DNA of 38,211 bases from contig JAJXTF010000005.1 of the NCBI GenBank assembly GCA_021784125.1, forward strand, positions 1 to 38,211, given 5' to 3'. Of this stretch, positions 1,397 through 32,350 are shown piece after piece. The translations under genes were made by a program, and so were the position numbers. How positions within the stretch are numbered: the first letter of the stretch is position 1; each line of letters opens with the position of its first letter. The notes beneath the pieces were generated by a model that worked only from the letters and a program-made list of their open reading frames with translations, ran no database searches and had not been told where the DNA came from. Source of the stretch: Pseudomonadota bacterium. GTDB lineage: Bacteria > Pseudomonadota > Gammaproteobacteria > Burkholderiales > Casimicrobiaceae.

Positions 1397-4051
<2,655 letters not shown>

Positions 4052-11904: not shown

Positions 11905-12618
11905 ATGACGACCCTCGACGCCCCGGTGGCGATGCTCGGCGGGACCTTCGATCCCGTCCACTATGGCCACCTGCGCCTGGCGTCGGAAGTGCGCGCGGCA
12001 CTGGCACTGCCCGAGGTGCGTCTGGTGCCCGCGGGGGATCCCCCGCACCGGGGCGCACCCGAAGCGAGCGCTGCCGACCGCATCGCGATGCTCGAGCTCG
12101 CGATCCGCGACTTCCCCGGCCTTAGGGTCGACACCCGCGAGATCCGGCGCGCCGGCAAGAGCTACACGGTGCTGACCCTCGAGGAGCTGCGCAGCGAGCG
12201 ACCGGGATCGCCGCTGCTGCTGCTGCTCGGCGCGGACGCCTTCCGCGGACTGACGACCTGGCACGAATGGCAGCGACTGTTCGAGCTGGCCCACCTCGTC
12301 GTCGTACCGCGACCGGGGGCCGATCTCGAAACGGAACTCCCGCAGGCCCTCGAGCGTGAATGGCGGATGCGCCACGCCCGCGATCCTTCCCCCTTGCGGT
12401 CGCGTCTGGCCGGCTCCATCTACGTCCAGGCGATCTCCGCGCAGCCGATTTCGTCGACGGCGATACGCGACGGGCTGATGCGCGAACCCGTGGGAAACCC
12501 GTCCCTCGCCGGTTTGCTACCCGCTGCGGTTTTGGCCTATATTCGATCGAGACAACTCTACCGACACCCCGCGAATGCGCCTTTCGAAGCTGCAGAAAAC
12601 CGCCGTCAACGCACTTGA
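11905..12618 (+). CDS. nadD: Nicotinate-nucleotide adenylyltransferase
   Basis: MLGGTFDPVHYGHLRLASEV; ISSTAIRDG motif; followed by rsfS. Confidence 0.95.
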   Translation: MTTLDAPVAMLGGTFDPVHYGHLRLASEVRAALALPEVRLVPAGDPPHRGAPEASAADRIAMLELAIRDFPGLRVDTREIRRAGKSYTVLTLEELRSERPGSPLLLLLGADAFRGLTTWHEWQRLFELAHLVVVPRPGADLETELPQALEREWRMRHARDPSPLRSRLAGSIYVQAISAQPISSTAIRDGLMREPVGNPSLAGLLPAAVLAYIRSRQLYRHPANAPFEAAENRRQRT

Positions 12619-12934
12619 AGACATCAAGGCGCGCGACATCGAAGTCCTGGACGTACGCAAGCAGACGAGCCTCTGCGACAGCTTGATCATCGCCTCCGCC
12701 GACTCCAACCGGCAGGTCAAGGCCCTGGCGGACCATGTCCGCGACAGGTTGAAGGAAGCCGGCGCGACGATCGTCGGTGTCGAGGGCGAGGAGTCGGCCG
12801 AGTGGATCCTGGTCGATGCCGGCGACATCGTCGTCCACATCATGCAGCCCGCGATCCGCGCGTACTACAACCTCGAGGAGCTCTGGGCGCCCCAGCCGCG
12901 CCTCGGGCGCCCGAGGCAAGCCTCGGCCGCATGA
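12575..12934 (+). CDS. rsfS: Ribosomal silencing factor RsfS
   Basis: 119 aa, LQKTAVNALEDIKARDIEVLDVRKQTSLCDSLIIASADSNRQVKALAD; 44-bp overlap with nadD. Confidence 0.95.
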   Translation: MRLSKLQKTAVNALEDIKARDIEVLDVRKQTSLCDSLIIASADSNRQVKALADHVRDRLKEAGATIVGVEGEESAEWILVDAGDIVVHIMQPAIRAYYNLEELWAPQPRLGRPRQASAA

Positions 12935-13017
12935 GTCCGACGGGCCGCCCCGAGGGCGAACGCGGGAGTGCGCAGCACGAAGGTGGCCCAGTGACCCCGA
13001 CGGGCCGCCCCGTGTGA
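12931..13017 (+). CDS. Candidate 28-aa ORF (MSPTGRPEGERGSAQHEGGPVTPTGRPV*) bridging rsfS and rlmH; probably repeat-element derived
   Basis: ATG 12931 overlaps rsfS TGA (ATGA); its TGA 13015-13017 overlaps rlmH GTG 13014-13016. Confidence 0.4.
   Translation: MSPTGRPEGERGSAQHEGGPVTPTGRPV
12937..13012. repeat. Direct repeat CCGACGGGCCGCCCCG, two copies, 60-bp period
   Basis: Identical 16-mers at 12937-12952 and 12997-13012. Confidence 0.95.
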
Positions 13018-13481
13018 GGCTCTGCGTCGTCGCGCTGGGACACAGGATGCCCGCCTGGGTCCGTGCCGGCTTCGACGAGTACGCGCGGCGGCTGCCGCGC
13101 GAGTTCGCTCTCCCGCTGGTCGAGATCAAGCCCGAGCCGCGCGACCGCGGCCGGAGCGTCGCGCAGATGCTGGTTGCCGAGGCCGACCGCATCGCCGCCG
13201 CGACGGCAGGCTACGCCAGCGTCGTCCTCGACGAGCGTGGAGCCGGCTGGTCGACGCACGATCTCGCCCTTCACCTGCGACAATGGCGCGAGGCCGGCCG
13301 CGACGTCGCTTTCGTCATCGGCAGCGCCGACGGCCTGCACGCCGACGTCAAGGCGAAGGCGCTTGCCGTCGTGTCGCTGTCGGCGATGACGCTGCCGCAC
13401 GGACTGGCGCGCGTGATCCTCGCCGAGCAGGTCTACCGCGCAACCAGCATCCTTGCCGGGCATCCCTATCACCGCGAATGA
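13014..13481 (+). CDS. rlmH: 23S rRNA (pseudouridine(1915)-N(3))-methyltransferase
   Basis: 155 aa from GTG; VRLCVVALGHRMPAWVRAGFDEYARRLP...; VIGSADGLHADVK; LSLSAMTLPHGLARVILAEQVYRA. Confidence 0.94.
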   Translation: MRLCVVALGHRMPAWVRAGFDEYARRLPREFALPLVEIKPEPRDRGRSVAQMLVAEADRIAAATAGYASVVLDERGAGWSTHDLALHLRQWREAGRDVAFVIGSADGLHADVKAKALAVVSLSAMTLPHGLARVILAEQVYRATSILAGHPYHRE

Positions 13482-30380: not shown

Positions 30381-30971
30381 TCAGGCACGCTGTAATGCAC
30401 AAAAGCCAAGGATCGCAGGAATCTGCTCGCCAAAACCGGAAAAGGCATGGTCCCCGCCGCCCTGGACGCATTGCCAGGCCCCGGCGTAGCAATCGATCGC
30501 CTTGCGGTAATCGAGGACCTCGTCGCCCGACTGCAGCAGCAGGAGATAGCGCGACGGCCGGCTGATGCGCGCAACGGCCATGGCACGCAACTCGGCGAAA
30601 TGCGCGCCGGTCACTTCGAAGCTCTCGCCGGTGTACATGTTCGTCTGCTTACCGGCGTGCGCCTGCAGATCCTCCCATGGCCTGACGGCGGGATTGATCA
30701 GCACCGCCCGCGCCTCGTGACGCTCGGCTGCGCAGGTCGCATAGAACCCGCCGAGCGAGCTGCCGACGAAAGCCAGCTGCGCAGGGTCGACGCTTCCGGC
30801 GATGGCCGATATCGCGGCCATCGCGCACGAGGGGCGGTGCGGGAGCTCCGGAACGTGCAGGATCGGCCGCTGCTCGGCGGGCAGCGCGGCGATCGCCTTC
30901 GCCAGCTGCGTCGCCTTCGTGCTTTGCGGCGACGAGCGGAATCCGTGCAGGTAGACGATCGTCGGCGTCAT
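30381..30971 (-). CDS. YqiA/YcfP-like alpha/beta-hydrolase esterase
   Basis: MTPTIVYLHGFRSSPQSTKATQLAKAI; LAFVGSSLGGFYATCAAERHEARAVLINPAVRPWEDL. Confidence 0.9.
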   Translation of the reverse strand: MTPTIVYLHGFRSSPQSTKATQLAKAIAALPAEQRPILHVPELPHRPSCAMAAISAIAGSVDPAQLAFVGSSLGGFYATCAAERHEARAVLINPAVRPWEDLQAHAGKQTNMYTGESFEVTGAHFAELRAMAVARISRPSRYLLLLQSGDEVLDYRKAIDCYAGAWQCVQGGGDHAFSGFGEQIPAILGFCALQRA

Positions 30972-32350
30972 GCGCCGGCGAGGGCATCGAGCAGCTTCCC
31001 GTGCACGCCGCCGAAAGCGCCGTTGCTCATCACCAGCACGTGGTCGCCCGATCGGGCGTCGCCAGCGACGGCGCGCACCAGCGCATCGAGATCGTCGAAG
31101 ACTTGCGCGCGCGAGCCCAGAGGCGCCAGCGCCGATCCCGCGTCCCAGCCGAGATTCGCCGCGTAGCAGTAGACGCGATCGGCCTGGGCCAGCGACTCGG
31201 GCAGTGCCGCCTTCATCGTGCCGAGCTTCATCGTGTTCGACCGGGGCTCGAGCACGGCGAGGATGCGCCCCGCCGGCTGCGACTTGCGCAGGCCGTCCAG
31301 CGTCGTCGCGATCGCGGTCGGGTGGTGGGCGAAATCGTCGTAGACCGCGACGCCGTTCGCCTGCCCGCGCAACTCCATCCGGCGCCTGACGCCGCGGAAC
31401 GATGCCAGCGCCGCGATCCCCGCGGCCATCGGAACCCCGACGTGCCGCGCTGCGGCGAGCGCGGCCAGCGCGTTCATGCGATTGTGGCGCCCCGGCAGCG
31501 CGATCTGCAGCGTCCCGGCAGGGACGCCGCGCTGTGCGATCGCGCCATCGTCGGCAATCGTCCACTCCGGAAGCGGCAGTCCGGAGGCGCGCGGCAACTC
31601 TGCGGGCGGCGTCGCGCCGAAGCGCTCGACTTCGCTCCACAGTCCGCGCGAGAACACCCGCGCGATGCTCGCCTCGTCGCCGTTGGCGATGATCCGCCCG
31701 TCGCCCGGCACCGTGCGGACCAGGTGGTGGAACTGGTTCTCGATCGCGGCCAGGTCGGGGAAGATGTCGGCGTGGTCGAACTCGAGGTTGTTCAGGATCG
31801 CGGTGCGCGGCCGGTAGTGGACGAATTTCGACCGCTTGTCGAAGAACGCCGTGTCGTACTCGTCGGCCTCGATGACGAAGAACGGGCTGTCGGTCAGGCG
31901 CGCCGAGACGTCGAAATCCAGCGGCACCCCGCCGATCAGGAAACCCGGCTGGAGTCCCGCATGGTCGAGAATCCGGGAGAGCATCGCCGATGTGGTCGTC
32001 TTTCCGTGGGTTCCAGCGACAGCGAGCACCCACTTACCGGCCAGAACATTCTCGTAGAGCCACTGCGGCCCCGAACTGTAGGGCAACCCGCGGTTCAGGA
32101 TCGCCTCGATCAGGGGATTGCCGCGGGAGACGACGTTGCCGACCACGAAGGCATCGGCGCCGCGCGCGACCCCGTCGAGTTGCGCGGCAGCGAAACCCTC
32201 GGTCAGCCCGATCCCCAGCGCCTCGAGTTGGGTCGACATCGGCGGATAGGGATTGGCGTCGCAGCCGGTGACCGCATGCCCGGCCTGGCGCGCGATCGCC
32301 GCGACGCCGCCCATGAACGTGCCGCAAATGCCGAGGATGTGCAGGTGCAT
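30968..32350 (-). CDS. mpl: UDP-N-acetylmuramate:L-alanyl-gamma-D-glutamyl-meso-diaminopimelate ligase
   Basis: MHLHILGICGTFMGGVAAIARQAGHAVTGCDANPYPPMSTQLEALGI; AVAGTHGKTTTSAML; VYDDFAHHPTAIATTL. Confidence 0.94.
   Translation of the reverse strand: MHLHILGICGTFMGGVAAIARQAGHAVTGCDANPYPPMSTQLEALGIGLTEGFAAAQLDGVARGADAFVVGNVVSRGNPLIEAILNRGLPYSSGPQWLYENVLAGKWVLAVAGTHGKTTTSAMLSRILDHAGLQPGFLIGGVPLDFDVSARLTDSPFFVIEADEYDTAFFDKRSKFVHYRPRTAILNNLEFDHADIFPDLAAIENQFHHLVRTVPGDGRIIANGDEASIARVFSRGLWSEVERFGATPPAELPRASGLPLPEWTIADDGAIAQRGVPAGTLQIALPGRHNRMNALAALAAARHVGVPMAAGIAALASFRGVRRRMELRGQANGVAVYDDFAHHPTAIATTLDGLRKSQPAGRILAVLEPRSNTMKLGTMKAALPESLAQADRVYCYAANLGWDAGSALAPLGSRAQVFDDLDALVRAVAGDARSGDHVLVMSNGAFGGVHGKLLDALAGA

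Follow-up and report, generated by a model that had tools for sequence, protein, structure and literature searches.

A dispersed 60-nt repeat of the Burkholderiales at stop/start overlaps and a proposed translational relay between rsfS and rlmH

The rsfS-rlmH junction

In the window, by which we mean the whole 38,211-nucleotide stretch of DNA analysed, the gene order is nadD-like, rsfS, rlmH, and a 28-codon mini-ORF sits between the last two (Table 1). It is tied to both neighbours by a -4-nt stop/start overlap: the rsfS stop TGA (12932-12934) lies inside an ATGA at 12931, and the mini-ORF's own TGA (13015-13017) lies inside a GTGA at 13014, the GTG of which is the rlmH start. The translation of the ORF at 12931-13017 is MSPTGRPEGERGSAQHEGGPVTPTGRPV, followed by the stop. 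A first-pass annotation had described both overlaps along with two identical 16-mers (CCGACGGGCCGCCCCG) 60 nt apart, and the coordinates agree with it on all three points, with the 16-mers placed at 12937 and 12997. The wider match around the 16-mers covers 28 nt at 82%, and a related 19-mer, allowed up to three mismatches, was matched twice in the window versus 0.04 times expected, which is beyond chance.

What had been taken for an 87-nt unit is an ORF of 1.4 units. The true unit is 60 nt, and on sequence grounds the 28-codon ORF is made up of a full unit of a dispersed repeat followed by a truncated one. It had also been stated that no clear Shine-Dalgarno sequence is visible for rlmH. None lies directly before its GTG, but a GAAGG that escaped mention precedes an internal in-frame GTG, from which an 8-codon ORF (VTPTGRPV, then stop) runs up to the rlmH start. 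Folding of the whole segment in the window gave no unusual stability (z -0.75).

Table 1. Features of the rsfS-rlmH junction in the window
Feature	Position	Strand	Remark
rsfS (ribosomal silencing factor), upstream gene	12575..12934	+	Pfam RsfS, E 1.1e-34
rlmH (SPOUT methyltransferase), downstream gene	13014..13481	+	Pfam SPOUT_MTase, E 4.3e-43
28-codon mini-ORF	12931..13017	+	ATG overlaps rsfS stop; TGA overlaps rlmH GTG
Insert, 83 nt	12931..13013	+	Absent from G011 and G016, the two closest relatives, in which the junction is an empty GTGA
Complete 60-nt repeat unit (TGAGTCCGACGGGCC...GGTGGCCCAG)	12932..12991	+	
Truncated second unit, first 22 nt	12992..13013	+	
Hairpin 1: CGCCC (12946-12950) with GGGCG (12954-12958)	12946..12958	+	
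Hairpin 2: GTGC (12968-12971) with GCAC (12975-12978)	12968..12978	+	
GAAGG, Shine-Dalgarno-like motif of the unit	12979..12983	+	7 nt before the internal GTG
Internal in-frame GTG, 3' start codon of unit 1	12991..12993	+	

The same junction was compared in relatives, a check put forward with the original description. G011 and G016 read GC/GTGAGGCTG, a plain GTGA, where the window's own genome (G000) reads GC/ATGAGTCC...CCCCGT/GTGAGGCTC (slashes mark the boundaries), so that the filled allele is 83 nt longer than the empty one. In other congeners, the rsfS-rlmH spacer is longer or is again a plain GTGA. Judged from these alleles, the window segment is an insertion into a pre-existing overlap. 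The converse case is found on the minus strand of the window at 30847-31100, where the overlap is a plain GCATGACG and the orthologous junction in G016 (contig C56) holds a 60-nt unit.

Copies, insertion sites, and conserved features of the unit

Searched with an 85-nt stretch of the junction, the window's own genome, a 3.2-Mb metagenome-assembled genome (MAG) in 354 contigs, gave further strong copies (E values of 8e-28, 5e-23, and 2e-11). Contig C306 carries two tandem units and a partial one before a mutT-like gene, C258 carries one unit before a yceI-like gene, and C325 carries a remnant at an opp-like junction, these gene names coming from a reading of the sequence and not from a family search. 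Each of these copies starts at TGA, and the intact ones end at GTGA. Within the genus, 12 of 22 genomes, counting the window's own, gave unit matches, with part of the matches in G002 and G008 belonging to another repeat family (see below) that was left out of the element counts. When 300 genomes of the order were searched at the protein level, clear copies turned up in G259, G262, G286, and G053, which belong to other families; some are tandem, and all read MSPP[GS]R[PL]KGE.RxA.xEG. Peptides of the SPTGRPEGE...SPTGRPV kind, which the first-pass annotation had described as recurring, have similar counterparts in the order, and the search that it had set as a check, across the Burkholderiales and within the genome, turned up further copies, so the unit is not unique to this locus.

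A pattern scan of 85,488 species matched at least 120 loci. Among the matches listed, all specific record titles were from Betaproteobacteria/Burkholderiales, the informative ones naming Bordetella, Rhodoferax, Ideonella, Methylibium, Ramlibacter, Rhizobacter, Piscinibacter, Aquabacterium, and Rubrivivax; the window's own genome was the only match among 387 sampled genomes of the class. The highest count per genome was 116 copies (MAG M113S2SP1A66QC), with 81 in a MAG labelled Bordetella parapertussis, 47 in Bordetella genomosp. 13, and 40 in Piscinibacter sakaiensis, and the reversed pattern gave no matches. Several of the compared genomes are MAGs. Four of 15 Bordetella species have the element, and Variovorax and Diaphorobacter plasmids carry it; the phage and viral collections searched held no copies, and carriage by phages or viruses was rejected. 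As far as sampled, the family appears to be limited to the Burkholderiales, including Bordetella, Piscinibacter, Rhizobacter, Methylibium, and Variovorax plasmids. Tandem spacing was exactly 60 nt in 41 of 45 cases, and the arrays suggest that units were added secondarily, through recombination or slippage.

Copies are oriented in sense. They begin at the TGA of the upstream gene, within an NTGA overlap, and usually end in a new RTGA. NTGA stood at the array start in 98 of 104 analysable arrays even though the TGA was no part of the scan pattern. By gene calls that are heuristic, here and in the frame counts below, the array TGA was the called upstream stop in 67 of 104 arrays versus 99 of 2,107 RTGA sites taken as controls from the same loci (odds ratio 37, p 8e-55). 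For Bordetella genomosp. 13, where the copies were chosen with a TGA-containing pattern, an NTGA start was seen in 20/20 and a called upstream stop in 18/20. Six filled/empty pairs from three closely related genomes (L062, L063, L056, L064, L060, and L068) differ by exactly 60 added nucleotides. Every empty allele contains NTGA (e.g., CATGAGC, GCATGACG, and GCGTGAGG), and because the base following TGA varies among them, the AGC after the left TGA must come from the element. The simplest description of the element is N/TGAGCCC...CCAR/TGA. It is from this distribution and these empty sites that we apply the label of candidate insertion element.

Conservation was assessed in 165 distinct ungapped units, the consensus of which is ATGAGCCCGCCGGGCCGCCCCAAGGGCGAATACCGGAGTGCGCAGCACGAAGGTAGTCCAGTGA. 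The reading frame is open in 159 of them, and mean entropies at codon positions 1, 2, and 3 are 0.45, 0.57, and 0.49; positions this equally variable do not support selection at the peptide level. Hairpin 1 (CGCCC-NNA-GGGCG) is nearly invariant and fully paired in 155 units. In hairpin 2 (GTGC-GCA-GCAC), the second pair is U-A in 84 units, C-G in 53, and G-C in 24 and has the highest mutual information of any pair; among 35 diverse units, the covariation score was 0.193 versus 0.082 when shuffled (0/500), with low scores for slid partners. We regard the hairpin covariation as strong but not independent evidence, because the two-sided changes are all at one pair and kinship can beat shuffles. 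On the 3' side of hairpin 2, a GRRGG motif varies mainly among purines (GAAGG, 87; GAGGG, 33; GGAGG, 18), and its end lies 7 nt from the 3' RTG. A Shine-Dalgarno core of this type occurs in 143/165 units versus 45/137 at equal distance before the sites' own first start. In the compared units, then, conservation is seen to track the hairpins and the Shine-Dalgarno-like motif, not the peptide. The earlier idea of a dispersed, ORF-preserving repeat survives in part, in that the repeat is dispersed in the Burkholderiales and its frame is usually open, but the peptide is not the conserved object.

Reading frames, a proposed relay, and competing explanations

Among 145 arrays starting at NTGA, 24 are followed by no sense gene that is clearly coding. 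In the other 121, where a sense gene clearly follows, the frame of that gene relative to the first NTG was split 76/30/15 (p 1e-11), the 15 being those in the third frame. The in-frame class is open throughout in 74 of its 76 arrays. In the second class, to which the window locus belongs, 30/30 mini-ORFs end with TGA exactly on the downstream gene's start. An unbroken chain is thus kept in 104/121 arrays, as 74 in-frame fusions and 30 mini-ORFs. On a Variovorax plasmid, the annotated phnK start is the ATG of the element, which gives a 4-nt overlap with the phnJ stop; on two further plasmids, the annotation starts the downstream gene at the element's 3' GTG.

An insertion between two genes that overlap tightly would ordinarily be expected to disrupt their translational coupling. 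In reporter work, termination-reinitiation coupling needed a -4 or -1 overlap, the last 15 nt of the upstream gene were enough for it, and it was near zero at a spacing of about 20-40 nt (PMC10666635), so an inert 60-nt insert at an NTGA junction should uncouple the genes. We consider it probable that the unit is a miniature dispersed insertion element of the Burkholderiales that enters co-directional NTGA overlaps and carries its own stop/start relay, which would preserve the coupling. The insert begins with TGA, so that the upstream stop is kept with a new start codon overlapping it, and 20 open codons follow; the unit holds the two short hairpins, the GRRGG, and, 7 nt later, a new RTG(A) that either shares the frame of the downstream gene or has its TGA on that gene's start. 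Ribosomes finishing the upstream gene would reinitiate at the rebuilt NTGA and then either read through into the downstream gene, adding about 20 residues, or terminate on the downstream start and reinitiate again, and the GRRGG would add direct initiation. In the window, the relay would lead from the rsfS stop through the 28-codon ORF, with its internal start at 12991, to the rlmH start. A relay-less 60-nt spacer should abolish coupling, so that only relay-carrying inserts would survive at NTGA junctions, and carriage of its own stop/start relay would let the element survive at coupled junctions. The same relay would explain the in-frame length and the tolerance of tandem copies. We infer this effect on translation from the anatomy of the unit. 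That the element may supply coupling had been proposed in the first-pass annotation; the anatomy fits, but the insertion is into an existing overlap and relatives have empty sites, so existing coupling was more likely preserved than newly created.

A neutral or selfish repeat, persisting at NTGA junctions as the least harmful site and without effect on the downstream gene, is quite possible, though short of an even chance. Conservation at the nucleotide level, patchy presence such as that among the 15 Bordetella species, and tandem arrays all speak for it, but the third frame is rare (15/121), the mini-ORFs of the second frame all stop on the start of the following gene, and the GRRGG motif is kept together with its spacing. 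The frame bias and the kept GRRGG show constraint, not benefit. A gene for a conserved small protein or peptide, lying between rsfS and rlmH, would account for the open frames and the recurrence of similar peptides, yet it is highly improbable given that the three codon positions vary to the same degree, that related plasmid units use another frame, that the ORF is absent from the rsfS-rlmH junction in relatives, and that no Pfam or NCBIfam family was matched above cut-off.

Unlikely, too, is a miniature element, REP-like or derived from IS200/IS605, that a Y1 (HUH) tyrosine transposase would move, with NTGA as the enzyme's short target and selection removing the other insertions. The small GC-rich unit with two hairpins, its orientation fixed to a short target, and the lack of a consistent target duplication would suit such an enzyme, and REPs are known near gene 3' ends (PMC3733652). 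However, Y1_Tnp (PF01797) was not found in the copy-rich genomes G323 (40 copies), G325 (47), G329 (81), and G259 (10), nor in G000, G016, and G013, some of these being MAGs or drafts; it was found once or twice in some other genomes. No autonomous split copy with an internal gene occurs among the 120 loci listed, and intergenic NTGA sites should have been targets too. With random insertion and later selection, copies would be expected at noncoding NTGA sites as well; that few were seen there is the most puzzling point. Reverse transcriptase (PF00078) was not found in G000, G016, G259, G329, and G322, absence from a MAG or draft being no proof. The consensus unit has no terminal inverted repeats, its two ends showing no complementarity, and beyond the NTGA present on both sides of the element, left/right agreement was no better than in permuted pairs at nearly all positions (83 arrays).

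The preferred reading, an insertion element with its own relay, has a bolder form that we offer tentatively. The family may be a mobile one whose niche is the translated stop/start overlap, inserted or recruited possibly via an RNA- or translation-linked step, and the unit may be a reinitiation cassette that is portable, with the order start, hairpins, Shine-Dalgarno, start, and that alters the stoichiometry between operon neighbours and adds N-terminal extensions. Its occurrence in many overlaps would offer a natural, replicated experiment on reinitiation and a source of new N-termini and relay ORFs. It would also be an annotation hazard, in that many Burkholderiales start sites and spurious small proteins trace to it. 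The question posed is what moves a 60-nt element with so narrow a target.

The nearest known kinds are REP/RAYT, the Rickettsia palindromic elements (RPEs), and the Bor repeats, none of which is described at stop/start overlaps with a relay anatomy. Like REP/REPIN sequences with their RAYT, the element is a small, GC-rich, hairpin-forming repeat that lies near the 3' ends of genes in tens of copies per genome, with copies in tandem or in clusters. Unlike them, it has no conserved GTAG or CGTC tag beside a hairpin in its consensus, is always in sense in stop/start overlaps with an open frame and a Shine-Dalgarno-like motif, and shows no RAYT (Y1) gene in several of its copy-rich genomes. It also differs from a classical MITE, which has terminal inverted repeats. 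RPEs are likewise small dispersed repeats whose in-frame insertion adds residues to host proteins, but they are about 150 bp and lie within Rickettsia genes, whereas this 60-nt unit lies at two-gene junctions, where it extends an N-terminus or makes a relay ORF; in-frame fusion to the downstream gene was found in 74/121 arrays, at the junction rather than inside genes. The Bor repeats of Bordetella, stem-loops of 26-30 bp in all Bordetellae studied (Petrillo et al. 2006, PMC1590033), are likewise short, hairpin-forming, and close to coding regions in a genus of the Burkholderiales; the present unit, at 60 nt and in 4/15 Bordetella species, is set apart from them by description, the Bor consensus being given only as a figure. 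Termination-reinitiation coupling at ATGA overlaps uses the same -4-nt overlap, which here is carried and duplicated by a dispersed repeat. There was no Rfam match above the gathering score, NCBIfam gave 0 matches, and Pfam gave sub-cut-off matches only. A search of the open-access literature gave no description of the element. It belongs with a known kind, the small dispersed hairpin repeat, and its behaviour is possibly new.

Related and look-alike repeats

A second, unrelated high-copy intergenic repeat of roughly 200 nt or more is present in the same genus (L261-L280 in G008 and L314-L320 in G002, at about 700-1000 of each locus). It has a 15-bp inverted repeat (TCGATGCAAAAGGCG/CGCCTTTTGCATCGA), a core GTCGCCCGACGGGCCGCCCCTAGGGCGACC, and no Rfam match. 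A short core is shared with the NTGA element, hence the cross-matches, and many pattern matches in G008 and G002 that looked like frame-broken copies, with TAG in the loop, belong to this unrelated repeat.

On plasmids, a subfamily (L341 1491-1567, Diaphorobacter; L342 1491-1567, Variovorax) has units of about 65 nt that are read in another frame. A repeat of 11-12 nt stands on either side (TGAGCGACGCG; TGAGCGCCGCGC), and its two copies change in concert from one site to the other, as expected of a target duplication. The longer target-site duplication hinted at by these copies is probably not a general feature, the 83-array permutation giving no general signal, and a longer duplication in L344 was explained as a leftover tandem unit. 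An IS110-family transposase gene (L344 1-594) lies just upstream of the copy on Variovorax plasmid PBL-E5, with no sign of a link beyond being a neighbour. A variant second hairpin, GCGC-GATA/GACA-GCGC, occurs in L278 (about 3925-4000) and L279 (about 740-815) of G008 and in G002 (C64:52384-52871), where the variant unit on C64 has a tandem spacing of about 66 nt.
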